From: an uncultured Caulobacteraceae bacterium
Lineage (GTDB): Bacteria > Pseudomonadota > Alphaproteobacteria > Caulobacterales > Caulobacteraceae
Assembly: GCA_903884915.1 (NCBI GenBank)
Contig: CAISGS010000403.1
Span: 1-23,698 of the forward strand
Reading direction: 5' to 3'
Length of the DNA: 23,698 nucleotides
In this document: positions 1-14,932 of the stretch, in pieces
Layout of the letters: the number at the start of each line of letters is the position of its first letter
How positions within the stretch are numbered: the stretch's first letter is position 1
Notes under the pieces: generated by a model
Seen by the model: only the letters and a program-made list of their open reading frames with translations
Database searches by the model: none
Told to the model about the DNA's origin: nothing
Position numbers and translations under genes: made by a program

Positions 1-1190
1 AGATCAAAGCGCTGGCCGAGGGTGGAAAGTTGAAGCCCGAAGAGGCGGTGGCGATGACCGAGCAGCTGCGGCTCGCCATGGTGGACAAGATGCTGCCTGC
101 CTATGAGCGGCTCGCGGCGTGGATCGTGAAGGACAAGCCGAATGCTTCGCCCGAAGCGCATGGCGTGGGCGCGCAACCTGAGGGCGCGGCTTACTACAAT
201 TCACGACTCTATCTCTCCACCACGACGGACATGACGGCGGACGAGATCCACGAGTTGGGTCTCAAGGAAGTCGCGCGTATCCGGGGCGAGATGGAGGTGA
301 TCAAGGACCAAGTGGGCTTCAAGGGCTCGCTGGAAGACTTCTTTGAGTACATGCGAACGGCCAAGCAGTTCTACCTTCCGAACAACGACCAGGGGGCGGA
401 GCAGTATCTGGCGCTGGCGCGGGGCTATCTCGACGCGATGGAGAAGAAGCTGCCGGAATATTTCGGCAAGCTGCCTAAGGCGAAACTGCTGGTGAAGCGT
501 GTCGAGGCGTTCCGGGAAGAGCCCGGCGGGGCCCAGCATTATGAAGCGGCGACGCCCGATGGGTCGCGACCGGGCACGTTCTACGCCCACCTGTCGGACA
601 TGAGCGCGGAGCCAACCTACCTGCTCGAAGACATTGCGTATCATGAGGGCCTGCCCGGCCATCACATGCAGATCTCGATCCAGCAGGAGCTCGAGAAAGA
701 GACGGGGCCGGACCGGCTGCCGAAATTCCGCACGCAGTATTTCTATGGGGCGTATGTCGAAGGATGGGGGCTCTATTCCGAAGCGCTTGCGAAGGAGATG
801 GGCTTCCTGCAGGACCCGTACAATGACTACGGCCGGTTGTCGGGAGAGATCTGGCGCGCGATCCGGCTTGTGCTCGATACGGGCATCCACGCGAAGGGCT
901 GGAGCGAGGAGGAGGCGGTGAAGTATTTCACCGAGAATTCCTCGATCCCGAAAGCAGCGATCGCATCCGAAGTGCGCCGCTACATCACCACGCCCGGACA
1001 GGCGACGTCGTACAAGATCGGCATGATCCGGTTGCAGCAGATGCGCGACAAGGCGCGGAAGGAGCTGGGCGTCAAGTTCAGCTATCCGGCTTTCCACGAT
1101 CAGATTCTCGGCGGCGGCGCTCTGCCCATGCCAGTGCTTGAGCGGAAGATCGATCGTTGGATCGAGAGCCAGAAAAAGGCGGCGACCTGA
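1..1190 (+). CDS. DUF885 family putative metallopeptidase, 5'-truncated by window edge (copy 1 of 4)
   Basis: The reading frame is open from base 3 to the TGA at 1188-1190 (395 residues). It aligns with roughly residues 215 to the end of the three complete paralogues that follow, so the N-terminal third and the expected lipoprotein signal lie outside the window. The DUF885 metal-site motif HEGLPGHH is encoded at 642-665, followed by EGWGLYSE, whose Glu is the likely third metal ligand. The C-terminal blocks GQATSYKIGM and FHDQILGGGALPMPVLE match the family. As I recall, the family belongs to the MA clan of zinc peptidases; substrates are unknown. Compared with copies 2-4 this copy has a small insertion after the metal motif (LEKETGPDRLPKF versus LTGIPKF). 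A 172-nt gap with no clear promoter separates it from copy 2, so it may or may not be in the same transcript. Confidence 0.9.
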   Translation, partial: IKALAEGGKLKPEEAVAMTEQLRLAMVDKMLPAYERLAAWIVKDKPNASPEAHGVGAQPEGAAYYNSRLYLSTTTDMTADEIHELGLKEVARIRGEMEVIKDQVGFKGSLEDFFEYMRTAKQFYLPNNDQGAEQYLALARGYLDAMEKKLPEYFGKLPKAKLLVKRVEAFREEPGGAQHYEAATPDGSRPGTFYAHLSDMSAEPTYLLEDIAYHEGLPGHHMQISIQQELEKETGPDRLPKFRTQYFYGAYVEGWGLYSEALAKEMGFLQDPYNDYGRLSGEIWRAIRLVLDTGIHAKGWSEEEAVKYFTENSSIPKAAIASEVRRYITTPGQATSYKIGMIRLQQMRDKARKELGVKFSYPAFHDQILGGGALPMPVLERKIDRWIESQKKAAT

Positions 1191-1362
1191 GGTGACTGAT
1201 ACGGCGTTGAGCCCGATCTCGTCCTTAGAGACGATCGCTTCGCAGTGCCTTACGATGATATCCCACTGCTGACTGTAGAATTGACGTCATCCTGTGGAGG
1301 CCAGAGGCCGTCTCGAAGGACGCGGGCGGGCTTGCCGGACGAATGGATTGGAGAGCGTGTCG

Positions 1363-3195
1363 ATGAGAGTTCTGTTGGCTTCCGCATTCGCTGCGCTGCT
1401 CGTGGCCTGTGGCCCGACACCCTCGATGCCTGTTGCGCCGACGGCGGAGGCGATCAAGGCAGAGAGCGAGAAGCTCACCCAATATCTCAACGCAGCGTAT
1501 GAAGAAGAGCTCGCGATGAATCCGCTGCAGCTCACCTCGATGGGGCGCAAGGAGAAGTATGACGAGCTGGGCGATTTCTCCGAGGCGGAAAATCTGAAGT
1601 TGCTCGAGTGGCGGCGCCAGAGCGTGGCCGGCATGAAGGCGCAGGTCAGCCGCGACAAGCTGAACGACGACGCGAAGACATCGTGGGATATCTGGGACTC
1701 GGAATTGAAGCGCGCGGAGCTGCAGCAGAAGTGGCTGCGCTTCAGCTACGTGTTCGGCTATGGCGGACCGCATACCGACCTGCCGAACTTCCTGATCACC
1801 TATCACAAGGTGGATGAGCCTGCGGACATGGACGCGCTGATCGCGCGGATCGGCAAGCTGGGCGCAGCGCTGGACCAGTCAACGGAGCGGGCGAAGCTGG
1901 CGGCGGCGGATGGGATAAGGACGCCGAAGTTCGGCTATGACCGCACAATGCAGGAGGCAGCGAACATCATCACAGGCGCACCGTTCGGGAAGGGACCGGA
2001 CTCACCCTTGTGGGAGGATGTGAAAGGCAAGATCGCGGCGCTGAAAACAGCAGGCAAGGCGACGCCGGAGCAGGAGGAGGCGTGGCTGGCGGCCGCCAGG
2101 ACTGCGCTGGTCGACCAGATGAAGCCGGCTTACGCGCGGCTGATCGCATGGATGAAAGCGGATCAGGTCAATGCGCAATCCGGCAAGGTGGGCGCGCTGA
2201 CGTTGCCGAAAGGCGCGGACTGGTACAACGCGTCACTGGAAATCCAGACGACGACCAAGATGACGGCGGAGGAAATCCATCAGCTCGGTCTCTCCGAGGT
2301 GAAGCGCATTCATGCGGAGATGGAGGCGATCAAGGACAAGGTCGGCTTCAAGGGCGACCTGAAGGCGTTCTTCGAGTTCATGCGGACGGACAAGCAGTTC
2401 TACCTGCCTGACACGGATGCGGGGCGCGCGGCCTACCTCAAGAAGGCCGAGGGTTATCTCGATGCGATGAAGGTTAAGCTGCCGCAGTATTTCGGCCGGC
2501 TGCCGAAAGCGCCGCTCATTGTGAAGCGGGTTGAGGCGTTTCGCGAAGTGCGGGGCGGGGCGGCGCACTACTACGCACCGACGCCGGACGGGAAACAGCC
2601 GGGCATTTTCTATGCACACCTGTCGGACATGAGTGCGGTGTCGCTGTGGGCGCTGGAGAGCCTTGCCTATCACGAGGGCGTGCCGGGCCATCACATGCAG
2701 ATCGCGATCCAGAACGAGCTGACTGACATTCCCACGTTCAGAACGCAGTACGGATACTCGGCGTTTGCGGAAGGCTGGGGTCTCTATGCCGAGGAACTCG
2801 GCAAGGAGATGGGGATGTTCACGGACCCGTACAACGATTTCGGGCGGCTTAACTCGGAGCTGTGGCGCGCGGTGCGGCTGGTGCTTGACACTGGGCTGCA
2901 TGCCAAGGGCTGGACAGAAGACGAGGCCGTCGCCTGGGCGATGGCTAACTCGGCACGGCCCGAGAGCTCAATCAAGAGCGAGGTGAAGCGGTTCCTGCTG
3001 TGGCCGGGGCAGGCGACAACCTACAAGATCGGAATGCTCACGATCCAGAAGCTGCGCGATGAAGCGAAGGCGGCGTTGGGCGACAAGTTCGACTGGAAGA
3101 CATTCCACGACACGGTGATCGATGGGGGCTCCATGCCGCTGCCGATCCTCGAGAACCGTGTACGTGCGTGGATTGCAGAACAGAAAAAGGTCTGA
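1363..3195 (+). CDS. DUF885 family lipoprotein, putative metallopeptidase (copy 2)
   Basis: A 610-residue protein of the usual DUF885 length. The ATG at 1363 was chosen because GGAGAG lies 7 nt upstream (1350-1355) and because it starts a clean lipoprotein signal, MRVLLASAFAALLVAC, with lipobox LVAC and Cys16. A start at 1294 in the same frame would add 23 residues that bury this signal. The protein should be anchored in the periplasm or outer membrane. The putative zinc site is H437-E438 with H443/H444 in HEGVPGHH, and E470 in AEGWGLYAEE. The C-terminal part has the family blocks WPGQATTYKIGM and FHDTVIDGGSMPLPILE. All expected catalytic residues are present, so it is probably active. Its stop overlaps the ribosome-binding site of the next copy, which implies cotranscription. 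The function as a peptidase is inferred from the family; no substrate can be read from the sequence. Confidence 0.92.
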   Translation: MRVLLASAFAALLVACGPTPSMPVAPTAEAIKAESEKLTQYLNAAYEEELAMNPLQLTSMGRKEKYDELGDFSEAENLKLLEWRRQSVAGMKAQVSRDKLNDDAKTSWDIWDSELKRAELQQKWLRFSYVFGYGGPHTDLPNFLITYHKVDEPADMDALIARIGKLGAALDQSTERAKLAAADGIRTPKFGYDRTMQEAANIITGAPFGKGPDSPLWEDVKGKIAALKTAGKATPEQEEAWLAAARTALVDQMKPAYARLIAWMKADQVNAQSGKVGALTLPKGADWYNASLEIQTTTKMTAEEIHQLGLSEVKRIHAEMEAIKDKVGFKGDLKAFFEFMRTDKQFYLPDTDAGRAAYLKKAEGYLDAMKVKLPQYFGRLPKAPLIVKRVEAFREVRGGAAHYYAPTPDGKQPGIFYAHLSDMSAVSLWALESLAYHEGVPGHHMQIAIQNELTDIPTFRTQYGYSAFAEGWGLYAEELGKEMGMFTDPYNDFGRLNSELWRAVRLVLDTGLHAKGWTEDEAVAWAMANSARPESSIKSEVKRFLLWPGQATTYKIGMLTIQKLRDEAKAALGDKFDWKTFHDTVIDGGSMPLPILENRVRAWIAEQKKV

Positions 3196-3205
3196 GGAGA
3201 GTTGG

Positions 3206-5047
3206 ATGCGTAACTGGGTAGCAGCCGGCCTGTTGGCCGTTGTGGTGGCATGTTCTCCTACCGAACCTGCAAAGCCTGCCGCGCCGACGGCGGCGGACAT
3301 CGCGACGACGACCGCGGACATCAACAAATGGTTCGACGAACAGTACGAGCAGGAACTGCAGATGAGCCCGATCGGGCTCACGGTGCAGGGCCGTAAGGAC
3401 CATTACGGCGAGCTCGATGACATGAGCGAGGCCGCGACGGACAAGCATCTCGACTGGCGGCGTAAGAGCGTTGCGGAGATGAGGGCGAAATTCGATCCGA
3501 AGAAACTTGATGAAGAAGCGCACACGTCGTTCGATGTCTGGGCGCTGGCGCTGGATACCGAAGAGAAGGGCGCGAAGTTTCGCCGCTCGCCATATGTGTT
3601 CGTGAAAGATGGTCCGCACGTCTTCCTGCCGCAGGTCTTCATGAACTTCCACAGTGTGGAAGAAAAGAGCGACATGGAGGCGTATATCTCGCGCCTCAAC
3701 GCAGTGAAGCGTGCGATGGGGCAGATCCTCGATCAGGCGAAGGCGGCTGCGGACGCGGGCAACCACGCGCCGCGCTTTGCCTACACGCAGGCGATCCAGG
3801 AATCGAAGAACGTCATTTCCGGCGCGCCGTTTGGCCGCGGCAAGGACACGCCGCTATGGGCCGACGCCAAAGCAAAGGTGAAGGCGCTGGTCGACGGCAA
3901 GAAGGTGACGGCCGAGGAGGGGAAGGCCCTGCAGGCGGATGCTGAGAAAGCGCTCAAAGAAAGCGTGAAGCCGGCTTATGACGCCGTGATTGCGTGGCTG
4001 ACCGAGGACGTGAAGAACACGCCGGAACAGGCGCAGGGCGCATCGCAGCTGATGAAGGATGGTGCGGCTTTCTACGAGACCGCGCTGGAGACCCAGACTA
4101 CGACGACCATGAGCGCGGATGAAATCCACCAGCTGGGCCTGAGCGAGGTCGCGCGTATTCACGGCGAGATGGAGAAGATCAAGGACCAGGTCGGCTTCAA
4201 GGGGACGCTGCCGGAGTTCTTCACCTTCGTGCGCACATCGCCGCAATTCCAGCTGCCCAACAATGACAAGGGCCGCGCCGAATACATCAAGATGTCGGAA
4301 GACTTCCTGAGCGGCATGGAAGCCAAGCTGCCGGAGTATTTCGGCATGCTGCCGAAGGCAAAGCTCATCGTGAAGCGGGTCGAGCCGTTCCGCGAGGAGC
4401 CAGGTGGCGCGCAGCACTATTTCCCTGGCACGGCGGACGGTTCGCGGCCGGGCGTGTTCTACGCCCACCTGTCGGACATGAAGTCGATGCCGACCTTCTC
4501 GCTTGAGGCGATCGCCTACCACGAGGGTGTCCCGGGCCATCACCTGCAGATCTCGATCGCGCAGGAGCTGACCGGCATTCCAAAGTTCCGCACGCAGTAT
4601 GGCTATACGGCCTACCAGGAGGGCTGGGGGCTCTACTCCGAAGCGCTGGCCAAGGACATGGGTTTCTACAAGGATCCGTATTCAGACTTCGGCCGCCTGT
4701 CGGCCGAGATCTGGCGTGCGATCCGGCTCGTTGTGGACACGGGTATCCATTCGAAGGGCTGGAGCGAAGAGCAGGCGGTGAAATACTTCCTCGACAACGG
4801 CCCGACACCGGAAGGCGCCGTGCGCTCCGAGATTCGCCGCTACATCGTTTGGCCCGGTCAGGCGACCTGCTACAAGATCGGCATGATCAAGATCCAGGAG
4901 CTTCGGGCGCTGGCGCAGAAGGAGCTTGGCGACACGTTCACCTATGCCGGCTTCCACGACACCGTGCTCGGCGGTGGTGCTCTGCCCCTGCCAGTGCTGG
5001 AAGCGCGTGTGAGGCGCTGGATCGACCACACCAAGACCAAGGCTTAG
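3206..5047 (+). CDS. DUF885 family lipoprotein, putative metallopeptidase (copy 3)
   Basis: A 613-residue paralogue. The ATG at 3206 follows AGGAG (3195-3199) by 6 nt and opens the lipoprotein signal MRNWVAAGLLAVVVAC, with lipobox VVAC and Cys16. A longer in-frame start at 3122 would lie inside copy 2 and hide the signal. After the lipid-attachment Cys comes a Pro/Ala-rich linker (SPTEPAKPAAPTAAD), typical of a tether for an envelope enzyme. Metal-site residues are H439-E440, H445/H446 (HEGVPGHH) and E472 in QEGWGLYSE. C-terminal blocks WPGQATCYKIGM and FHDTVLGGGALPLPVLE are intact. It starts 10 nt after copy 2 and ends 9 nt before copy 4, consistent with one operon. The copies differ most in the N-terminal helical third, which suggests divergence in substrate or partner recognition. 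Confidence 0.92.
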   Translation: MRNWVAAGLLAVVVACSPTEPAKPAAPTAADIATTTADINKWFDEQYEQELQMSPIGLTVQGRKDHYGELDDMSEAATDKHLDWRRKSVAEMRAKFDPKKLDEEAHTSFDVWALALDTEEKGAKFRRSPYVFVKDGPHVFLPQVFMNFHSVEEKSDMEAYISRLNAVKRAMGQILDQAKAAADAGNHAPRFAYTQAIQESKNVISGAPFGRGKDTPLWADAKAKVKALVDGKKVTAEEGKALQADAEKALKESVKPAYDAVIAWLTEDVKNTPEQAQGASQLMKDGAAFYETALETQTTTTMSADEIHQLGLSEVARIHGEMEKIKDQVGFKGTLPEFFTFVRTSPQFQLPNNDKGRAEYIKMSEDFLSGMEAKLPEYFGMLPKAKLIVKRVEPFREEPGGAQHYFPGTADGSRPGVFYAHLSDMKSMPTFSLEAIAYHEGVPGHHLQISIAQELTGIPKFRTQYGYTAYQEGWGLYSEALAKDMGFYKDPYSDFGRLSAEIWRAIRLVVDTGIHSKGWSEEQAVKYFLDNGPTPEGAVRSEIRRYIVWPGQATCYKIGMIKIQELRALAQKELGDTFTYAGFHDTVLGGGALPLPVLEARVRRWIDHTKTKA

Positions 5048-5056
5048 GAACAGCTG

Positions 5057-6883
5057 ATGCGTTTGTGGATCTCCGCTGCGGTTGCGGCAGTTGTGATGGG
5101 CTGCACGCCAGCCACCCCGCCTGCTCCGACTGCGGAGGAGATCGCGAAGACAAGTGCTGAACTAACTGTGTGGTTCGACGCCAGATTCGAAGAACAAGTG
5201 CAGATGAGTCCGCTTTCCCTGACCATGCTTGGGCGCAAGGAGCAGTACGACAAGCTGAACGATTTCAGCGACGCGCAGGCTGATCGCCAGCTGGCCTGGC
5301 GGCGCGCGAGCGTTGCCGAGATGAAGCAGAAGTTCGACCCGGCGAAGCTGGACATTGAATCCAGAACTTCGTTCGACCTGTGGGTGCAGCAGCTGGACAT
5401 GGACGAGAAGGCCAACAAGTTCCGTGACTTCGGCTATGTCTTCATCAAGGACGGACCGCACGCCTTCCTGCCCAACTTTATGATGAGCTTCCACGAAGTG
5501 TCGGAAAAATCCGACATGGACGCCTACGTTTCGCGCCTCAACGGCTTCGGCCTGGCGATGGACCAGACGTTGGAGCATGCAAAAAAAGCCGCCAGCCTCG
5601 GGCATCGCCCGCCGCGCTTCGCCTATGTTCAGGCATTGCAGGAATCGAAGAACATCATCACCGGCGCGCCGTTCGGGAAAGGCGAGGACTCGCCGCTGTG
5701 GGCCAACGCCAAAGGCAAGATCAAGAAGTTGCAGCACGATGGCAAGGTGACGGCAGCTGAGGTCAAGGTGTTGGAGGATGGCACCTCGAAGGCGCTGATC
5801 GAAACCGTCAAACCGGCCTATGCCCGGCTGATCGCCTGGCTGACCGAGGACGAGGCAAAGGCGACGGCCGAGTCTCAGGGCGTGGGCGCGCAGCCGGATG
5901 GCGCGGCGTTCTACAACATGATGCTGGAACAGCAGACCACCACGACCATGACAGCTGACGAAATCCACGAGCTGGGGCTCAAGGAAGTCGCGCGCATTCG
6001 TGGCGAGATGGAGCAGATCCGCGCGGCGGTAGGCTTCAAGGGCGACCTGCCCGCGATGTTCAAGTTCATGCGTGAAGACAAGCAGTTCTATCAACCAGAC
6101 ACGGATGTTGGCCGCGCGGCCTACCTGAAGCAGGCCGAGGATTATCTGGCCGGGATGACGGCGAAGCTGCCCGCGTATTTCGGACGCCTCCCGAAGGCGC
6201 CGCTTGTCGTTAAGCGCGTTGAAGCGTTCAGGGAAGAGAAGGGCGGCGTGCAGCACTATTATCCGGGCACGCCCGATGGATCGCGTCCGGGCATCTACTA
6301 CGCGCACCTGTCGGACATGACGGCGATGCCGATGTGGGACCTCGAGAACACGACGTACCACGAAGGCCTGCCGGGCCATCACATGCAGATCTCGATCGCG
6401 CAGGAGCTGACCGGCATTCCGAAGTTCCGCACGCAGACGGGCTATACCGCTTATGCGGAAGGCTGGGGGCTCTACACCGAGCTGCTCGCCAAGGAGATGG
6501 GGTTCTACACGGACCCCTATTCCGATATGGGCCGGCTGAACGCCGAGATGTGGCGCGCCGTGCGGCTGGTGATCGACACCGGCATCCATTCCAAGGGCTG
6601 GGGCGAAGAGCAGGCCGTGAAATACTTCATAGACAACAGCCCGACGCCGGAAGCGGCCATCCGCGCCGAGATCCGCCGGTACTTCGTCTGGCCCGGCCAG
6701 GCGACGTCGTACAAGATCGGGATGCTGAAGATCCTCGAGCTCCGGGCGTTGGCGCAAAAGGAGCTTGGGCCTAAATTCACTATGGCCGGCTTCCACGATA
6801 CGGTGCTGGCGGGCGGCGCGTTGCCGCTGCCGATCCTCCAGACGCGCGTGAATCAGTGGATCGAAAGGGTGAAGGCGGGATGA
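5057..6883 (+). CDS. DUF885 family lipoprotein, putative metallopeptidase (copy 4)
   Basis: A 608-residue paralogue. The ATG at 5057 lies 9 nt after the stop of copy 3, with AGGAA at 5046-5050 as ribosome-binding site. The lipoprotein signal is MRLWISAAVAAVVMGC (lipobox VMGC, Cys16), followed by a Pro/Thr-rich linker. Metal-site residues are H435-E436, H441/H442 in HEGLPGHH and E468 in AEGWGLYTE. The tail has WPGQATSYKIGM and FHDTVLAGGALPLPILQ. It is closest by eye to copies 1 and 3, sharing for example the RTQ-GYTAY block and GTPDGSRPG region. The stop codon TGA overlaps the start of the following small lipoprotein gene (ATGA at 6880-6883), which indicates translational coupling. A peptidase role is known only at family level; the natural substrate is not deducible. 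Confidence 0.92.
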   Translation: MRLWISAAVAAVVMGCTPATPPAPTAEEIAKTSAELTVWFDARFEEQVQMSPLSLTMLGRKEQYDKLNDFSDAQADRQLAWRRASVAEMKQKFDPAKLDIESRTSFDLWVQQLDMDEKANKFRDFGYVFIKDGPHAFLPNFMMSFHEVSEKSDMDAYVSRLNGFGLAMDQTLEHAKKAASLGHRPPRFAYVQALQESKNIITGAPFGKGEDSPLWANAKGKIKKLQHDGKVTAAEVKVLEDGTSKALIETVKPAYARLIAWLTEDEAKATAESQGVGAQPDGAAFYNMMLEQQTTTTMTADEIHELGLKEVARIRGEMEQIRAAVGFKGDLPAMFKFMREDKQFYQPDTDVGRAAYLKQAEDYLAGMTAKLPAYFGRLPKAPLVVKRVEAFREEKGGVQHYYPGTPDGSRPGIYYAHLSDMTAMPMWDLENTTYHEGLPGHHMQISIAQELTGIPKFRTQTGYTAYAEGWGLYTELLAKEMGFYTDPYSDMGRLNAEMWRAVRLVIDTGIHSKGWGEEQAVKYFIDNSPTPEAAIRAEIRRYFVWPGQATSYKIGMLKILELRALAQKELGPKFTMAGFHDTVLAGGALPLPILQTRVNQWIERVKAG

Positions 6884-7140
6884 GGCTTCTGTTTATCGCC
6901 GGACTGTTTGTATTGGTTGGATGCGGCGGCTCTCCGCTGACCGGCGATGCCAAGGCCGTGCACGATCTGTGCGTCGCCAATGGCGGCGTGGCGTCCTACT
7001 GCGACTGCACGACCAAGGAGCTGCAGGCGAAGATGACGCCCGAGCTGTTTGCGCAGGTGGCAAAGGGCGAGACGGGAGGCGATCCCGCGACAACGCTGGA
7101 CGTGATGATGGCGGCGGACAAGGCCTGCAAGAAGCCGTAG
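6880..7140 (+). CDS. small cysteine-rich lipoprotein, function unknown
   Basis: An 86-residue protein starting at the ATG inside the ATGA overlap (6880-6883) with copy 4 of the DUF885 genes. It begins with a lipoprotein signal, MRLLFIAGLFVLVGC (lipobox LVGC, Cys15). The mature part is short and has four more cysteines, one in HDLC, two in YCDC and one near the C-terminus in DKACKK. An even number of Cys in a periplasmic protein suggests two disulfides or a metal or haem contact, but no CxxCH is present. I do not recognise a family. The overlap and the end-of-operon position suggest a role tied to the DUF885 lipoproteins, for example as an accessory or inhibitor; that is inference. An in-frame start at 6856 would place a charged stretch before the signal and is less likely. 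Confidence 0.8.
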   Translation: MRLLFIAGLFVLVGCGGSPLTGDAKAVHDLCVANGGVASYCDCTTKELQAKMTPELFAQVAKGETGGDPATTLDVMMAADKACKKP

Positions 7141-7161
7141 CTCAGGCTGGCGCGGTTGCGG

Positions 7162-8130
7162 CTATTCCGCAGCAACGGGCGCCGGTTTGGCTGCTTGCGT
7201 TTTCAGATGTTTGCGAGTGAGGCCGGGCGTCCCGGCCTGTTCGGGGTGCGCCGCGAGATAGGCCTGCTTTAGCTCGGCGGAGCGGGAGTGGTTGCCATCT
7301 GGCGACCAGCCGGGCTTGTTGATGAAGCGGGCGACCCAGCGCCAGGGACGCGGGCCATCCGTCCAGCAATCTTGCAGGAGTGCGCCGAGCTGGCCGTAGG
7401 CGACAACGATCGGATTGTGCGTCGCCAGCAGCTTCACGGTGCCGTAGATGGGTTTGTCATAGTCGAGCTCGGGAACGAAGGAGCCGAACATCCGGTCCCA
7501 GATGATGAAGACCCCCGCAAAGTTCGCGTCGAGATAGCGCGGGTTGGTGGCGTGGTGCACGCGGTGGTGGCTCGGCGTGTTCATCACAGCTTCGAACCAT
7601 TTCGGCATCCGGCCGATGGCTTCTGTGTGAATCCAGTACTGGTAGACGAGGTTGATGCCGGCCGCGAAAGCGATGAAGGCCGGATGGAAGCCAAGCAGCA
7701 CCAGCGGCGCCGCGATGATGACGAGGCCGGTGAGCGGTCCGAACCAGGGCTGGCGCAGCGCGGTGGTGAGATTGTAGTGCTGCGAGGAATGATGGGTGTG
7801 ATGCTCGATCCACCACCAGCGCACGACATGCGCGAAACGGTGCTTCCAGTAATAGATCAGGTCATACGCCACGAAGACGATCAAGAAACTCCACCACGTC
7901 ACCGGGAATTCGAAAGCGCGATAGGGCCAGAAAGTCATCAGCATCCACAGGCCGACGGTAGCCGTGATCGTATCCACAACGGCGCTGCCCGTGCCCATGA
8001 TGAGTGAGGTGATCGCGTCCTTCGTCTCGTAGCGGCCCTTGGCGCGGCCGGTCTTCACCGCCCACCATTCGAGGGTGACGGTGAGGAGGAAGAAGGGGAT
8101 CGCGAAGATCGTCGGCTTGATGAAATCCAT
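7162..8130 (-). CDS. fatty acid hydroxylase / sterol desaturase family membrane protein
   Basis: A 322-residue integral membrane di-iron enzyme of the FAH superfamily. Hydrophobic segments lie at about residues 5-23, 50-70, 78-95 and 130-165. The three histidine boxes are complete: H97-x3-H101 (KHRFAH), H110H111TH113H114 (HHTHH) and H188HRVH192H193 (HHRVHH), with another conserved His at 168. Members hydroxylate or desaturate lipids such as sterols, carotenoids, fatty acids or ether lipids; the layout of these boxes with NPRYLDANFAG after them resembles alkylglycerol-monooxygenase-like members, but the substrate cannot be fixed. The C-terminal 70 residues form a soluble, Ala/Pro-rich tail. 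The ATG at 8130 is preferred; a GTG at 8148 would add six residues, and neither has a clear ribosome-binding site. It is convergent with the DUF885 operon (21-nt gap) and lies 73 nt downstream of the phosphoesterase gene. Confidence 0.88.
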   Translation of the reverse strand: MDFIKPTIFAIPFFLLTVTLEWWAVKTGRAKGRYETKDAITSLIMGTGSAVVDTITATVGLWMLMTFWPYRAFEFPVTWWSFLIVFVAYDLIYYWKHRFAHVVRWWWIEHHTHHSSQHYNLTTALRQPWFGPLTGLVIIAAPLVLLGFHPAFIAFAAGINLVYQYWIHTEAIGRMPKWFEAVMNTPSHHRVHHATNPRYLDANFAGVFIIWDRMFGSFVPELDYDKPIYGTVKLLATHNPIVVAYGQLGALLQDCWTDGPRPWRWVARFINKPGWSPDGNHSRSAELKQAYLAAHPEQAGTPGLTRKHLKTQAAKPAPVAAE

Positions 8131-8203
8131 GGCCGGGAGGAATCGCACGGGGCGGCCGCGATGTGAAGCGGGCGCCTGAACGGTACGGCCTTTTTGGGTG
8201 GCG

Positions 8204-8998
8204 CTAGGTTGCCGCGATACTGGTAATCATCTCGTCCGGCGCAAATGCTGCGCCATCATGTCGCCAGCGTTGAACGGCGACTGCCTCTGGCGTCACGTGG
8301 AGCAGCAGGAAGCCTGCGCCCGCCCCGCGTTCGCGGGAGCTGGCGAGGGACGGGGCGGTGAGGGTATGTATGGCGGAGGCGGGGTCCTGCGACAGGAAAT
8401 AGCCGTGGACGTGGCCGCACAGGATGATGGACCGGGATGGGGGCTTCAGCAGGGCGAGGGCTCTGGCGGAGCGGCGGGTACGCGACCTGACCAGCGCCTC
8501 GGAGGGCGTGAAGGGGGGGTGGTGGCAAGCGAGGAAGCGCCAGCCAGTGGGGGCGCCTTGTTCTAGTTTCGCCTGCGCTGCGGCAACATGTTCCAGGTCG
8601 AAGACGCCTTGCGACCAGTCGCGGCGTAGCTGGAAGGAACGGGCGGTGTTGGTCGACGCGACTGCGGCCAGTCCATCGCCGCCGGTCCAGAAGCCATCGA
8701 GACCAAGCCGGCCGAAGCGTCCGAAAGGGCTAAAGGCACGCGCATGAAGGGCATAGACCGGCGTGTCGTGATTGCCCGGCGCGGCGACAATTGGAACGGT
8801 TATATGGCCGAGCCAGTTGCCAGCCTGCAGGAATTCGCGACGCCGGCCAGCCTGCGTGAGATCGCCGGTGAGGGCGATGCAGTCGGGTTTGAGCGTTTCG
8901 ATGGCGGTGAGAGCGGCATCAAGACACGCGGGCGATGCGTCACCGAAATGGATGTCGGTGATGTGCATGATACGGAGAGAATGGGTTGCGTCGGGCAT
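8204..8998 (-). CDS. calcineurin-like metallophosphoesterase
   Basis: A 264-residue cytoplasmic protein with the full metallophosphoesterase metal-site series: D15-x-H17 (TDIHFGD), D46 in ALTGDLTQ, N76-H77-D78 (GNHD), H160 in CHHPPF, and H196-x-H198 in GHVHG. This pattern fits class III cyclic-nucleotide-phosphodiesterase-like and related phosphoesterases; cAMP, a phospholipid or a nucleotide-lipid could all be substrates. The ATG at 8998 lies 4 nt after the stop of the upstream lipid-kinase gene, so translation is probably coupled. A longer frame exists from 9034, but it would overlap that gene by about 30 nt and add residues unrelated to the fold. Pairing with a diacylglycerol-kinase-like gene makes a phospholipid-related role reasonable; this is inference. 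Confidence 0.88.
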   Translation of the reverse strand: MPDATHSLRIMHITDIHFGDASPACLDAALTAIETLKPDCIALTGDLTQAGRRREFLQAGNWLGHITVPIVAAPGNHDTPVYALHARAFSPFGRFGRLGLDGFWTGGDGLAAVASTNTARSFQLRRDWSQGVFDLEHVAAAQAKLEQGAPTGWRFLACHHPPFTPSEALVRSRTRRSARALALLKPPSRSIILCGHVHGYFLSQDPASAIHTLTAPSLASSRERGAGAGFLLLHVTPEAVAVQRWRHDGAAFAPDEMITSIAAT

Positions 8999-9002
8999 GT
9001 AC

Positions 9003-10046
9003 TCAGGCGCGCTGAGTTGCTTCAGATGTCGCATCGCGCGGTATGGCGAGAACAGGCAGTGCGTCTCGATCGAGCGTTACGATATTGGCGCGCGAGATGC
9101 GCATGGGTTCGCCATCAAGGACGACCAGAGGACGGCGACTGGGGAGCTTGATGTCGACCTGTTGTGCGCGGGCGATCCTAAGGCGCGGAGAAGCGCGCCA
9201 GCCGCCGGATAGGAAGGCGGCGCCAAAAAACAGCATCTGCCACACCGAGCGTATCCTGAGCGAGGCGATTTCGAGATGGTGGCCGTGCTCCTCTCCACCC
9301 GGAGCGAGAATGCGCTCAAGGCCGCCGACGGCGATGACCAGTGAGTGAGCATTGCGCCATTTCATCCCATCAAGACGCCAGCCGATCCGGCAGTGAAGCG
9401 ACGGGCCAATGTTTTGGAGGAGGGCGCCAGCTGCCTGCCAGATGCGATGAAACTTATGCTGCGAACGAACGGCCTCGCGCAGGCGGGTCATCGGGCCGGG
9501 GAAACCGAAGGCAGCAGACAAGAAGAAGCTCTCGCCGCCGATGCGGCCAACGTCGAGCAAGCGCGGCCTGAGCATCGGCAGTTCGGTTGTGGCGCGGGCG
9601 AGGTCACCGTGGCCGAAGATGATCTTCGGTAAGACGTTCATGGTGCCGCCGGGCATCAGGATGACCGGAATGCCTGTGACTACTGCACGGGCGGCAGCAT
9701 TGCGCGCCGTGCCGTCGCCGCCGACGACAATCACTGCCGAAGGCCTGTCATTGAATGCCTTGTCAAAGGCCGCGTCCAGTCCAGAGGGAGCAACCGACAG
9801 GACGTCAAACGTAGCGTCCGGAAGGGCGGCCTTGAGACCTTTCTGATCGAACCTGGAGCTGCTACCGGCGCCGTTGTTGACGACGACGACATAGCTCGAG
9901 TGCTGCGATTTTTGCGGGGGTGTGGCGTCCCTTGATATGGCGGGCGAGTTGGAAGCAATGACATCCTCGGCGACCGGCGCGTCATTCACGCCCGACTGTG
10001 TTGCATAGCGCTGTTCGCTGGCGGTCGGCGTCACTTCCATTTGCAT
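9003..10046 (-). CDS. diacylglycerol kinase catalytic-domain protein (lipid kinase)
   Basis: A 347-residue protein with the DAGK catalytic fold. The nucleotide-binding signature VVGGDGT is at residues 107-113 and the second motif MPGGTMNVLPK at 131-141. An initial beta-strand with VVVNNGAGS starts near residue 53, and the conserved DGEP occurs near the C-terminus. The family phosphorylates diacylglycerol or sphingoid/undecaprenol-like lipids with ATP; it acts at the inner face of the membrane. The first 50 residues are polar and low in predicted structure and precede the fold, so the true start may be further in, although no better-supported start is visible. It heads a leftward unit with the metallophosphoesterase (4-nt gap) and perhaps the FAH-type hydroxylase, and is divergent from the CocE-type hydrolase gene. 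Confidence 0.87.
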   Translation of the reverse strand: MQMEVTPTASEQRYATQSGVNDAPVAEDVIASNSPAISRDATPPQKSQHSSYVVVVNNGAGSSSRFDQKGLKAALPDATFDVLSVAPSGLDAAFDKAFNDRPSAVIVVGGDGTARNAAARAVVTGIPVILMPGGTMNVLPKIIFGHGDLARATTELPMLRPRLLDVGRIGGESFFLSAAFGFPGPMTRLREAVRSQHKFHRIWQAAGALLQNIGPSLHCRIGWRLDGMKWRNAHSLVIAVGGLERILAPGGEEHGHHLEIASLRIRSVWQMLFFGAAFLSGGWRASPRLRIARAQQVDIKLPSRRPLVVLDGEPMRISRANIVTLDRDALPVLAIPRDATSEATQRA

Positions 10047-10154
10047 CCCGCAATAGCGTCCCTGCGCACAATGCAGTCAACCGACTCCACCCATCCGTCT
10101 GCTTGCGCCGACAGAAGCGGAATGCTCGGGACGTGTTCAAGTTCCCTGTGCGGG

Positions 10155-10183
10155 TTGACCTTAGGGGCCGCTCAGCGTGATTG
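10155..10183 (+). promoter_or_regulatory. candidate sigma-70-type promoter for the CocE-type hydrolase gene
   Basis: TTGACC at 10155-10160 is followed after exactly 17 nt by TGATTG at 10178-10183. The -35 element is 5 of 6 against TTGACA; the -10 element is weak. It lies 40 nt upstream of the start codon at 10223 in the divergent intergenic region and no better pair is visible there. This is a pattern match only. Confidence 0.3.
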
Positions 10184-10192
10184 TGCGCTACA

Positions 10193-10210
10193 GCGGCTGG
10201 GACAAGCCGC
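10193..10210 (+). promoter_or_regulatory. stem-loop directly upstream of the ribosome-binding site
   Basis: GCGGCT (10193-10198) and AGCCGC (10205-10210) form a perfect 6-bp stem around a GGGACA loop. The hairpin ends about 2 nt before the ribosome-binding site GGGAGAGA (10213-10220) of the CocE-type gene at 10223. It may act in the 5' leader on translation or mRNA stability, or be chance in GC-rich DNA. Confidence 0.3.
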
Positions 10211-10222
10211 AAGGGAGAGAAC

Positions 10223-11944
10223 ATGCGCAAGTGGACGGTGGCCGCGCTCGCGGCGGTTTCGGCTGTGGCTCTGGGCGTCGGATTGCTCGTGCCAGGGGCA
10301 ATGGCGCAACAGCAGCCGGCCGGGAAACAACAGGCAGGTCAGGCAGCTGTGCAGGGAAGCGCAGCCAACCCACTGGCGGAGGGCGCCACCGAAGTCTTCG
10401 CCACCATGCGCGATGGCGTGAAGCTGGCAGGCAATCTCTACCTGCCCCAAGGCAAAGGCCCGTTCCCCTGCATCGTGGTGCGCACGCCGTACGGCAAGGA
10501 CGAGATGTACAAGGATCCGCGGGGCGCTGAAGGCTACCAGAAGGCCGGCTACGCATTTCTGGTTCAGGACACGCGCGGCAAGGGCCACTCGGAAGGTTTC
10601 TACCAGGCATTCGTGAACGATCGCGATGATGGTTATGATACGATCGAGTGGATGGCGAACCAGAGCTGGTGCAACGGCAAGGTCGGCATCACCGGTCCGT
10701 CGGCCATGGGCATCACGGGCAATCTCGCGGCCATCGCCAACCCGCCGCACCTGACGGCGGCCTATGTGGTGGTGGCGCCCTTTGACCTGTTGCAAAACAG
10801 CTATCCGGGCGGGGTCTTGAAAGAAAAGGACGTGCTGGGCTGGTCCAAGGGCCAAGGCATGTCCGACGCGGTGCTCGACCAACAGCGCCGCCGCGTCGCT
10901 GATGATGTGTTCTGGAACCGTGCGGCCATGAGTGAGAACCGCAAATATATCCAGATCCCCATCTACAATTTCGGCGGCTGGTACGACATCTTCAACCACG
11001 GCAACATTTCCAACTTTGAATATCTGCAAAATCATGGGGCCAAGGGCGCACGCGGCAATCAAAAGCTGCTGATGGGCCCTTTCGGCCACGGACCCCTGTC
11101 CGGCAATCTGGAATATCCCGGCTTTGACTCTTTGAAGCTGTCGGGCGAGCAGGAAATCCGCTGGTTCGACTATTGGCTCAAGGGGATCGACAACGGCATC
11201 ATGGCTGAGCCGCCGGTGAACTATTATATGATGGGCTCGGCCCAGAAGGGGGCCCTGTCCGCCAAGTCTCGGATGGTAGCGTCCGCCAACTGGCCCCCAG
11301 CCAATCGCCCAGTGTCCTACTATTTGACGCCGGACATGAAGTTGACCATCAAAGCTCCAGCAGCCGACAGTGCCAAGATTGGCTATCAGTTTGATCCGGC
11401 TAAGCCTGTGCAGACCGTCGGCGGGGCCAATCTGACCTTTGATCGAGGCCCGATGGATCAACGGGCCATTGGGGATCGAAGCGATTATCTGCGCTTCCAA
11501 ACCCCTGTCCTCGAAAAGGACCTGTCGATTGCCGGACCGGTGAAGGTTGAGCTCTATGGGGCTACCGATGGGCTCGATACGGATTTTGTCGCCAAGCTGG
11601 TCGATGTCTATCCTGACGGCTATGAGGCACTGGTTCTGGATGCACCGATCCGCACCCGCTATCGCAATGGTCGGATGCCTGATCAGGTCAAGATGATGAC
11701 GCCCAATGCCCCGGAAGCCTTGGAGATAGACCTCTGGTCCACAGCCCTGACCTTCGAGCGGGGCCACCGCATCGCGCTGCATATCACCTCGTCCAATAGT
11801 CCGCGCTTCGAGGTCAATCCCAATACGGGTGAAGCCCCTGGTGAACATAGGCTGCCAGCGCGGGTGGCGACCAATATGATCTATATGGATGCCAGCCATC
11901 CGTCGGCCTTGGTGCTCCCAGTGATCTATCCAGAAGGGCAATAG
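10223..11944 (+). CDS. secreted CocE/NonD family hydrolase (X-Pro dipeptidyl-peptidase S15-like)
   Basis: A 573-residue exported protein. The ATG at 10223 follows GGGAGAGA and opens a Sec signal, MRKWTVAALAAVSAVALG and onward, with probable cleavage after residue 28 (AMA|QQQ). The catalytic domain is an alpha/beta hydrolase: VVRTPYGKDE near residues 85-95, nucleophile Ser160 in GPSAMG, Asp255 in GGWYDIF and His289 in GPFGHG, forming a complete Ser-Asp-His triad. The C-terminal jelly-roll domain typical of CocE/X-Pro peptidases follows, with APIRTRYR and the IALHITSSNSPRFEVNPNTG block. The family hydrolyses acyl esters, cephalosporin side chains or Xaa-Pro peptides. The gene is 73 nt upstream of the copper-monooxygenase fusion gene and both products are exported, so they probably share a transcript and a compartment. 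The exact substrate is unknown. Confidence 0.92.
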   Translation: MRKWTVAALAAVSAVALGVGLLVPGAMAQQQPAGKQQAGQAAVQGSAANPLAEGATEVFATMRDGVKLAGNLYLPQGKGPFPCIVVRTPYGKDEMYKDPRGAEGYQKAGYAFLVQDTRGKGHSEGFYQAFVNDRDDGYDTIEWMANQSWCNGKVGITGPSAMGITGNLAAIANPPHLTAAYVVVAPFDLLQNSYPGGVLKEKDVLGWSKGQGMSDAVLDQQRRRVADDVFWNRAAMSENRKYIQIPIYNFGGWYDIFNHGNISNFEYLQNHGAKGARGNQKLLMGPFGHGPLSGNLEYPGFDSLKLSGEQEIRWFDYWLKGIDNGIMAEPPVNYYMMGSAQKGALSAKSRMVASANWPPANRPVSYYLTPDMKLTIKAPAADSAKIGYQFDPAKPVQTVGGANLTFDRGPMDQRAIGDRSDYLRFQTPVLEKDLSIAGPVKVELYGATDGLDTDFVAKLVDVYPDGYEALVLDAPIRTRYRNGRMPDQVKMMTPNAPEALEIDLWSTALTFERGHRIALHITSSNSPRFEVNPNTGEAPGEHRLPARVATNMIYMDASHPSALVLPVIYPEGQ

Positions 11945-12017: not shown

Positions 12018-14051
12018 ATGGCGATTTTGGGCAAGATCACGACGAGACATCTGGCAACGCTCCTGCAGGTCATGGGGACGATTGCCGCGCTTAGCGTGGG
12101 GCAAGGCGCCTTTCCTGCGGCGGCGCAAACCAAGCCGGCCGCGAGCCCAAGCCGAGTCGATGATTTCTTTTTGGCGGATCAAGATCTGCTCGGTCATCAG
12201 CTCTACCGGATGCGGGATGCCAAGGCCGTGGTTATGGTGACCTATGCGCCCGGCGACCGGCGTCTGAGGGCAGATGCCAAGGCGCTCATGGCCCTCAAGA
12301 CCGTCTATCCCAAGGGCCTAGAACTGTTTGGACTAGACAGCCGTATTGGCGCACGGCGCGAGGTGGTCACAGCCGATATCAAGGCGGCTGGTCTCAATAT
12401 ACCGATCCTCTTTGACTATGAGCAGCTTGTGGGCGAAGCCCTCGGCGTCACCCGCGCGGCCGAAGTCATCGTTATCGATCCGCGCCGCTGGACCATCGCC
12501 TATCGCGGACCGGTGGATGGTGCCAAGCCAGCCCTCGACGGCCTGATGGCGGGGGAGAAAATCGCCCTACCCGCCCGCGTCGCCCTGGGCCAAGCTCTGA
12601 CTTTCCCAGAACGAGCCAAGGCGTCCAGCCACGCGAAGATCTCTTACACCGATAGTGTCGCACCGATTATCCAGGCCAAATGCGCCACCTGCCATCAGCC
12701 TGGCGGGATCGGGCCGATGCCCCTTAACACCTACAGCCAGATCAAGGCCTTCTCGCCGATGATCCGCGAGGTCATCCGAACCCACCGTATGCCGCCCTAT
12801 CTGGCGGACCCCACCGTGGGGGCGTTCAAGGACGATGACCGCCTGACCTTGGACCAGAGAAAGACGCTGGTTCACTGGATTGAAGCGGGCGCGCCGCGCG
12901 GCACGGGCGAAGACCCCTTACAGAAGGTGACCTTCCAAGCCCCCGAATGGCCACTCGGCAAGCCGGATGTGGTGCTCGACGTGCCACGGGTCAAGGTCCC
13001 CGCGACAGGGATCATGGACTATCAGCACCCAGTCGTGGCCAATGCCATGTCCGAGGGCCGCTGGATGAAAGCCACCACCTTCCGCATCACCGATCGTCAG
13101 GCTGTGCACCATATTCTGACCGGTGTCGTTGGCACCGACCATGTGGGCGACACCTTCTCTGAGAGCCAGTGGGGCGCGTCCTTGGGCGGCTATGGCCCGG
13201 GCCGTGGCTCCAACATCCAGCCAGACGATACCGGCGTATGGGTGCCTGCCTCAGGCGGTGTCGGGTTCCAGAACCACTATACGCCCTATGGCAAGGAAAC
13301 GACCGAGAAGACCCAGATGGGGCTCTATTTCTATCCCAAGGGACAGGAACCGACCTATGTCCTGCGCACCTTCCTGATCTTCGATTTCTCAATCGAAATC
13401 CCACCGGGCGAGGAATTCCATAAGGAAACCAGCTATATTGAGTTCCCGAAGGACGCGATCCTCTATGGCATCACGCCCCACGCCCACGTGCGCGGCGGCT
13501 CGGCCCAGGTGTCGATCCTCTATCCCGACGGCAAGGAAGACAAGTTACTGGCCCTGCCCCGCTATAATTTTAGCTGGCAGTACGAGTACTTCTTGAAGGA
13601 CCCCCTGAAGGTACCGGCGGGGGCCAAGATCATTGCGCGCTGGACCTATGACAATTCCACTCGCAACCCCGGCAACCTCGACCCGACCAAGACCGTCTAT
13701 ATGGGGGAGCAGACCTCTGAAGAGATGATGGCGACCTATCTGCACTATCGCTGGGTCGACGAGACCGTAGCCCACCAAACGCCAGACTATGAAACCCAGC
13801 TCCAGGGCAATCTGCTGATGGGAATCCTCGATGACAATATGAACGGCAAGATCGAGATGTCTGAACTGCGAGGCGGGGCAAAGGGCCCGGTCAAGATGCT
13901 CAAGACCTACTTTGCGCTCATCGATACAAGCCATGATGGTGGCATTGATGCCAAGGAGATGGCGGCGGCTGCGAAGTTAATGCCCAAGCGTAGCCCGACA
14001 GCAGGGGTTCCACCCCCGGTCCCGACGATCTCACCGGTGGCATCGCGCTGA
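12018..14051 (+). CDS. exported redoxin-like / cytochrome c / copper type II monooxygenase / EF-hand fusion protein
   Basis: A 677-residue exported protein. The ATG at 12018 has GGGAG 5 nt upstream, and the signal peptide ends near residue 36 (AAA|Q). Order of parts: (1) a redoxin/thioredoxin-like fold at about 48-185 in which the catalytic Cys position is Ala77 (TYAPGDRR); (2) a c-type haem site C222-A-T-C225-H226 with Met258 (RMPPY) as possible axial ligand; these two Cys are the only ones in the protein; (3) a PHM/DBH-like copper monooxygenase region at about 300-590 with H364-H365 (AVHHIL), H420 (NHYTPYG), H488-x-H490 (PHAHVRG) and M570 (EQTSEEM), the full ligand set of the two copper sites; (4) EF-hand loops D605-E616 and D636-E647. 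Hydroxylation with electrons delivered through the haem is a reasonable inference; the substrate is unknown. Confidence 0.9.
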   Translation: MAILGKITTRHLATLLQVMGTIAALSVGQGAFPAAAQTKPAASPSRVDDFFLADQDLLGHQLYRMRDAKAVVMVTYAPGDRRLRADAKALMALKTVYPKGLELFGLDSRIGARREVVTADIKAAGLNIPILFDYEQLVGEALGVTRAAEVIVIDPRRWTIAYRGPVDGAKPALDGLMAGEKIALPARVALGQALTFPERAKASSHAKISYTDSVAPIIQAKCATCHQPGGIGPMPLNTYSQIKAFSPMIREVIRTHRMPPYLADPTVGAFKDDDRLTLDQRKTLVHWIEAGAPRGTGEDPLQKVTFQAPEWPLGKPDVVLDVPRVKVPATGIMDYQHPVVANAMSEGRWMKATTFRITDRQAVHHILTGVVGTDHVGDTFSESQWGASLGGYGPGRGSNIQPDDTGVWVPASGGVGFQNHYTPYGKETTEKTQMGLYFYPKGQEPTYVLRTFLIFDFSIEIPPGEEFHKETSYIEFPKDAILYGITPHAHVRGGSAQVSILYPDGKEDKLLALPRYNFSWQYEYFLKDPLKVPAGAKIIARWTYDNSTRNPGNLDPTKTVYMGEQTSEEMMATYLHYRWVDETVAHQTPDYETQLQGNLLMGILDDNMNGKIEMSELRGGAKGPVKMLKTYFALIDTSHDGGIDAKEMAAAAKLMPKRSPTAGVPPPVPTISPVASR

Positions 14052-14096: not shown

Positions 14097-14932
14097 ATGT
14101 CGAATGAGGCTTGGACTGACGAGGAAAATGACCTGATCGTTGCGGACTATTTCGCGATGTTGGTCAATGACGTCTCTGGGGCCAACTACAACAAGGCCGA
14201 CCATCGCAGGCGATTGGTCCCTCGGCTGCGCAACCGCTCAGAGGGATCGGTCGAGTTTAAGCACCAGAACATTAGCGCCGTCCTGAAGGGGCTGGGTGAA
14301 GATTGGATTGTTGGCTACAAGCCCCCTTCAATTTTCAACTGTCCTTGGTCGATGCGGTCGTGCGTTGGCTAGACCTCCACCCCATTTGGCGCGCCGTTGC
14401 GTTGAGCCCCATCCCGTCGAGCGGGCTCTATGAAGCGCCTCCCCTCTGGATCGGGCCGCCCCCAACGCAAAGCAATGGGCCTGCACCGCAAGAGTTGGAA
14501 CAGATGCTGCACATTGCCCACAAATTCGATGTGGCAGGCAGAGACGAGAAAAACCGAGCCCTTGGGCGCGCGGGTGAGGAGCGGGTCTTAGCCCATGAAC
14601 GCAGCAGTCTAGCCTTGGCCGGTCGGGCAGATCTCGCCAAGGCCGTGCGGTGGGTGGCGGATGAAGATGGCGATGGTGCAGGCTATGATATTGCCAGCTT
14701 CAATCTAGACGGAAGCCCGCGCCTGATCGAGGTCAAGACCACGAACGGCTGGGAGCGCACGCCTTTCTATATCAGCCGCAATGAACTGGCCGTCGCGGAT
14801 GAGCGGCGCGCGGATTGGTCCTTGGTCAGACTGTGGAACTTTGCCCGCGAGCCTAAGGCTTTCGAGCTTCACCCCCCACTAGAGGCCCATCTCTCCCTAA
14901 CCGCCACGACCTTTCAGGCCAGTTTTCATTGA
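14097..14932 (+). pseudogene. DUF3883 domain protein, interrupted by a 1-nt frameshift
   Basis: Two overlapping frames together make one recognisable protein of about 278 residues. The first runs from the ATG at 14097 (MSNEAWTDEEND) through GLGEDWIVGYKP; the second continues with FNFQLSLVDAVVRWL from 14327 and ends with TGA at 14930-14932. They meet in a run of five C at 14322-14326. One extra C would give GYKPPFNFQ in a single frame; as written the first frame ends after a nonsense tail at 14372. The C-terminal half is a DUF3883 domain with the nuclease-like residues GRAGEE, GYDI and IEVKTT, suggestive of a PD-(D/E)xK fold. DUF3883 proteins often occur near restriction or other defence genes, though none is seen here. 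A homopolymer sequencing error is as likely as a real mutation. Confidence 0.75.

Follow-up and report, generated by a model that had tools for sequence, protein, structure and literature searches.

PHM and DBH of animals are textbook examples of enzymes that use ascorbate. We analysed a bacterial relative of these copper monooxygenases that is encoded at positions 12018..14051 (+) of a 23,698-nucleotide stretch of DNA (contig CAISGS010000403.1 of an uncultured Caulobacteraceae bacterium; hereafter the window). In this 677-residue protein a predicted export signal is followed by a redoxin (thioredoxin-like) fold, a haem c domain, a PHM-type copper core and two EF-hand loops. Judged by its predicted fold and its copper ligands, it is a copper type II monooxygenase of the PHM/DBH kind. 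That kind is known, and the fused haem is common to a wider set of bacterial proteins; distinctive features are the added redoxin and EF-hand parts, a repeated change at the redoxin cysteine column and a neighbouring pyrroloquinoline quinone (PQQ) dehydrogenase gene in related loci. No publication on bacterial haem-fused PHM proteins or on their distinctive features was among the open-licence literature matches listed. We consider it probable (roughly 0.6) that the protein is an exported two-copper hydroxylase of the PHM/DBH type that receives its electrons through its own haem c and not from free ascorbate. Such an enzyme would provide a further C-H hydroxylation route, an exported one, that might find use in catabolism or biocatalysis.

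Compared with rat PHM (PDB 1sdw, 1opm; 15% identity), the window protein adds a haem c in front of the copper core and has no cysteines beyond the haem pair. Human DBH (PDB 4zel) instead carries a DOMON-fold domain, a relative of haem- and sugar-binding domains for which the available excerpt of PMC4846438 mentions no haem, together with a helical dimerisation domain and 14 disulfide-bonded cysteines, as the same excerpt describes. The open reading frame (ORF) of the window protein was judged real. Between it and its nearest ortholog, at locus L003, nonsynonymous divergence (dN) is 0.0098 and synonymous divergence (dS) is 0.124 (NG86), a ratio of about 0.08, and this low dN relative to dS indicates that the protein is under purifying selection.

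A first-pass annotation of the window had proposed a PHM-like copper ligand set (H364, H365, H420, H488, H490, M570), and alignments to DBH and PHM bear it out residue by residue. The core spans residues 314-611 (12957..13850 (+)). The CuH ligands His364 and His365 (13107..13112 (+)) form an HH pair that was aligned by the alignment tool to the PHM pair, which we take to be His107/108. The third CuH ligand, His420 (13275..13277 (+)), and the CuM ligands His488 and His490 (13479..13487 (+)) fall on DBH His333 and His412/414, respectively. These assignments come from a profile of 32 copper cores, which matches human DBH at E 6e-4, and from bridging alignments through a distant haem c and PHM homologue, L112:4195-5439 (-), from a genome in a different family of the phylum; the DBH ligand numbers are those in the excerpt of PMC4846438, with positions counted by hand and the chain index taken as residue number minus 39. 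The same bridging alignments equate Met570 (13725..13727 (+)), a CuM ligand, with PHM Met314. Since the L112 homologue aligns both to residues 209-576 of the window protein (E 6e-30) and to rat PHM (E 2.8e-7), it closes the gap between the two. The HH, HY, HxH and DEM motifs are in register across all three proteins, with PHM Met314 sitting in GGTSSDEM opposite GEQTSEEM of the window protein.

When Foldseek's top 1000 chains were re-examined with VIA-align (983 aligned) against the structural model, the two-domain copper core fold was recovered over 272 aligned residues with a root-mean-square deviation of 3.3. The weak spot of the model is block 561-570, which carries Met570 and has a mean predicted local distance difference test score (pLDDT) of 62. 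A domain search for the Cu2-monooxygenase family, which the first-pass annotation had called for, places PF03712 (Cu2_monoox_C) above the Pfam cut-off; the N-terminal model PF01082 has no match in the window protein and lies above the cut-off in the L112 homologue.

The haem c domain occupies residues of about 205-300 (12630..12917 (+)). Its single CATCH attachment motif (residues 222-226, with C222, C225 and H226; 12681..12695 (+)) had been recognised before, and the invariant Met258 (in MPP; 12789..12791 (+)), likely the second axial haem ligand, had been overlooked. A CxxCH motif together with a candidate second ligand is what a c-type cytochrome carries, and we predict a haem site here. 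The Cytochrome_CBB3 domain is found in 32/32 sequences and stays below Pfam's cut-off for the window sequence. We followed the ligands through three homologue lists, each a query plus its best 120 matches: the window protein (2691 matches), a paralogue with the redoxin cysteine (3435 matches) and the L112 homologue (486 matches). All six copper ligands, the CxxCH motif and Met258 are kept in 121/121 of the closest proteins and likewise in 121/121 of the Cys-bearing paralogue group, and haem and copper ligands are kept in 105/105 ORFs from the homologous loci (duplicates included).

The third list reaches proteins of a simpler build. These bacterial proteins (L112, P0242-P0361), most of them about 400-450 residues long, share a haem c followed by a PHM core with the same ligands. 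Their named sources include Polyangium and other Myxococcota, and some are annotated as 'Copper type II ascorbate-dependent monooxygenase'. Met258 and each copper ligand are present in 121/121 and CxxCH in 119/121, the two without it being short records of 346 and 335 residues. Unlike the window protein, however, they show nothing at the redoxin cysteine column and almost nothing at the two EF-hand positions checked, and a redoxin domain is absent from the precomputed Pfam annotation of the 120 listed relatives, a list that is biased to proteins resembling the query along their whole length. Haem and copper ligands thus co-occur even without redoxin and EF-hands, which suggests that haem and copper form the unit and strengthens the case that the fused haem feeds the coppers. 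Alternatively, ascorbate or another small reductant could reduce the coppers directly, as in PHM and DBH, with the haem serving as a side input, a sensor or a structural element. The copper core is indeed a true PHM homologue, and DBH is reduced by two ascorbates (excerpt of PMC4846438), but CxxCH and the Met ligand vary hardly more than the copper ligands do, also in proteins that lack redoxin and EF-hands, which makes direct reduction improbable. In the favoured haem-fed hydroxylase, a redox partner would reduce the haem domain, electrons would pass from haem c to CuH and CuM, and CuM, once loaded with copper, would bind O2 and hydroxylate a C-H bond of the substrate.

A possible redox partner is encoded beside many of the related genes. 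We reduced 104 ORF rows to 91 by removing any that was at least 98.5% like an earlier row, and placed these in an unrooted tree made by a quick method, with support from the Shimodaira-Hasegawa-like approximate likelihood ratio test (SH-aLRT) only and with L102 as a long branch. The window's clade comprises 37 of the 91 rows (SH-aLRT 99) and was chosen with part of the neighbourhood already known. A same-strand PQQ beta-propeller dehydrogenase lies directly downstream in 15/35 testable clade loci vs 0/52 of the rest (Fisher 1.2e-7, kinship ignored), leaving out rows with fewer than 300 bases after the gene (2/37 of the clade, 2/54 of the rest). Within 5 kb, a PQQ gene is found in 17/37 vs 2/54 (L034, L046). 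Upstream, a divergent TetR gene belonging to one subfamily is present in 19/37 clade rows vs 0/52 (Fisher 1.6e-9, kinship ignored), leaving out rows with fewer than 600 bases before the gene (none of the 37, 2/54 of the rest). We considered chance adjacency for the PQQ gene, and none of the 52 other testable loci has one directly downstream. A CxxCH motif precedes the propeller in 13 of the 15 PQQ neighbours, is absent from L030 and is unchecked in L012, which is cut; Pfam confirmed the PQQ domain in all four neighbours submitted (L005, where the dehydrogenase gene spans 8156-10096, and L030, L092 and L096), the rest having been identified by model search.

Because much of the clade encodes a PQQ dehydrogenase directly downstream, in most cases with a haem c motif of its own, the likely pathway there is a hydroxylation and then, within one compartment, oxidation of the resulting alcohol. 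The neighbour might act on the alcohol product, donate electrons, or do both: in that part of the clade it may oxidise the alcohol, and it is a plausible electron source for the copper enzyme. Its adjacency, mostly with a haem c motif, also strengthens the case for a haem that feeds the coppers. The combination of a haem-copper fusion and a frequent PQQ neighbour hints at a way in which such enzymes could dispense with ascorbate. Furthermore, with the haem c near-invariant and the PQQ neighbour frequent, a direct test of what reduces bacterial PHM-type enzymes would take only two or three purified proteins. A functional parallel, and only that, is known from Coprinopsis and Neurospora, where a PQQ pyranose dehydrogenase feeds a copper lytic polysaccharide monooxygenase through a cytochrome domain, according to the excerpts of PMC5960967 and PMC6472588. 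The fungal system differs in using another kind of copper enzyme, a haem b (excerpt of PMC6472588) and a cytochrome that sits on the dehydrogenase.

Oxidation of an alcohol yields two electrons, the number that one hydroxylation needs, so the pair would be redox-neutral in principle. A self-fuelling, ascorbate-free cassette can therefore be imagined, in which the copper enzyme converts CH2 to CHOH with two electrons in, the PQQ-haem c dehydrogenase converts CHOH to C=O, and the electrons return from haem to haem, such that the pair needs nothing but O2 and substrate; we regard this as rather unlikely. Somewhat easier to accept, while still short of even odds, is a purely metabolic link in which the alcohol is oxidised, its electrons enter the respiratory chain, and the haem of the copper enzyme obtains its own from elsewhere, for example from a general periplasmic cytochrome, an arrangement that agrees with a haem-fed hydroxylase in all but the donor. 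Beside the copper enzyme, the window and L003 lack both the PQQ dehydrogenase and that TetR gene, and 20/35 testable clade loci do without a PQQ neighbour. Likewise, by analogy, polyvinyl alcohol (PVA) dehydrogenase, a PQQ and c-type cytochrome enzyme (excerpt of PMC6472588), has been linked with a separate cytochrome c (PMC4611681), and the neighbour might work in that manner. The clade-specific adjacency and the haem c motif on both partners nevertheless fit direct exchange at least equally well.

The two absences just given also weigh against an electron route through the fused haem from such a partner, as do several further points. To our knowledge, no activity has been described for any of these proteins. 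The window's own genome (83% complete) contains only distant PQQ dehydrogenases, at 26-30% identity among the five longest matches, and the four of these genes that were read carry their haem motif in the C-terminal half. Pfam did not find the haem domain of L096, one of the 13 neighbours with a motif, at E 1e-4. The comparison of neighbourhoods is partly biased because the PQQ and TetR models derive from genes that were first noticed beside the clade, and further TetR-type genes are found close to Cys-bearing paralogues (cluster 7; cluster 6 by eye). The relatives listed were those with the best scores, a choice that favours proteins retaining the haem. Cluster 7 (L032:4128-5540 (+) and seven further loci) is a 470-residue ORF that in L032, where Pfam was applied, joins a TetR-type DNA-binding start to glycosyltransferase domains. 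Gene H1 on a plasmid of Sphingopyxis 113P3 is a 40% homologue of the PQQ neighbour. Since the known pva operon of that strain is chromosomal (PMC4611681) and H1 lies on a plasmid, we do not claim the name 'PVA dehydrogenase' for the neighbour.

The positions beside the CuM ligands are variable between clades. Over 106 rows, residue 486 is F in 52 and T in 50, and residue 572 is A in 44, F in 29 and Y in 27, as would be expected if the paralogues differ in substrate. Window Thr486 and Ala572 were placed by eye opposite PHM Arg240 and Asn316, which we take to be the residues that hold the peptide carboxylate. Peptide amidation was considered and is not supported, these residues not being kept; no search was made for an amidating-lyase partner. 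The first-pass annotation had proposed an envelope substrate, for which no support was found in this analysis. A copper/haem redox sensor, a copper-handling protein or a peroxide-using enzyme built on the PHM fold would also accommodate the variation beside the CuM ligands and the fact that no substrate is known. However, the fold is complete, as are the two sets of copper ligands, several paralogues occur per genome, and variability next to fixed metal ligands would be expected if substrates had diversified, such that we see little reason to prefer a function other than hydroxylation.

The redoxin domain (residues of about 43-190; 12144..12587 (+)) matches 3u5r, 2ywi, 2cvb/2ywo and ResA. It differs from redoxin and ResA-type thiol-disulfide proteins (3u5r, 2cvb, ResA) in that Asp80 (12255..12257 (+)) stands where their catalytic Cys would be, leaving it thiol-free. 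The first-pass annotation was right that the thiol is missing and wrong in assigning the loss to Ala77, as the alignment puts the Cys column of the paralogue group at residue 80. This column is Asp in 120/121 of the closest proteins and Cys in 120/121 of the paralogue group. After residue 25, 118/121 of the closest proteins have two cysteines and the other three have three; the 118 thus have none beyond the haem pair, which had been overlooked. Thiol chemistry by this redoxin is rejected because the domain has no cysteine, and the thiol-less fold may serve as a folded spacer or docking domain. Over the 91 de-duplicated ORFs the column is Asp in 64, Cys in 24 and Ser in 3. On the tree, from which the redoxin part had been excluded, five changes of the Asp label are needed, counted without direction between Cys and Asp, and at least four of them are forced by the starred branches. 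A second redoxin gene lies downstream of 9/23 testable Cys-bearing rows vs 0/64 others. The repeated exchange of Cys, Asp and Ser in the redoxin, against a constant haem and copper background, is a natural experiment that bears on where in the fusion the chemistry takes place.

Two C-terminal EF-hand loops, also proposed previously, are present at residues 605-616 (13830..13865 (+)) and 636-647 (13923..13958 (+)). Each is an acidic 12-residue loop ending in Glu, the Pfam score falls just under the cut-off, and D605, E616, D636 and E647 are kept in 121/121 of the closest proteins; the loops probably bind calcium for stability. At the other end, the export signal (residues 1-36; 12018..12125 (+)) was recognised by eye from a K/R-containing start, a hydrophobic stretch and AAA before QT, and the model pLDDT is low in this region. 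A periplasmic location is most likely. The domain order described in the first-pass annotation is borne out.

In the window's own taxonomic family, 27/199 genomes match the protein; eight of the 27 do so at five places each, five being the most scored per genome. Across a phylum sample, 10/299 genomes match at E 0.001. Only two of them (its own and G259) match over most of its length, the source genome of the L112 homologue (G096) matches over the haem and copper parts, and seven match over short stretches. PF03712 was found in 2/299 of these genomes and in 0/14 control genomes; it missed G259, which the window protein finds, so these Pfam counts are too low. A search of plasmids with the window protein gave no match. 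The nearest relative outside its genome is L003, a Caulobacteraceae bacterium contig whose copper enzyme is 98% identical, and in the genome scan, which kept the best 80 of 225 loci, 18 of the 26 next loci (L004-L029) are named Phenylobacterium. The same draft genome holds a second copy, 50% identical, in which the redoxin Cys is present. At L092 (2964-18247, +), three copies of the copper enzyme lie on one 19.5 kb stretch, one of them followed by a PQQ dehydrogenase.

Within the window, a peptidase S15/CocE-type hydrolase (10181..11944 (+); start codon uncertain) ends 73 nucleotides before the copper enzyme gene and is a possible operon partner. Members of this hydrolase family lie close to the copper enzyme gene in L003, L004, L028 and L104 too, with identities of about 31% for L004 and L028. 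The hydrolase is 83-87% identical between the window (10181-11944) and L003 (4200-5927), compared with 98% for the copper enzyme, an uneven divergence. Further upstream, four consecutive DUF885-type genes were recognised by eye at 30-6883 (+), the first apparently cut by the window start; one of them (5057-6883) has a DUF885 Pfam match at E 1.2e-177. Downstream, a small gene at 14303-14932 (+) encodes a NO VEIN C-terminal domain (E 3.9e-21) and is not linked to the copper enzyme. Beside the L112 homologue, at 1861-3984 and 5581-7473 (-), inspection by eye revealed a TonB-dependent-receptor-like protein and a 630-residue FG-GAP-repeat-like protein.
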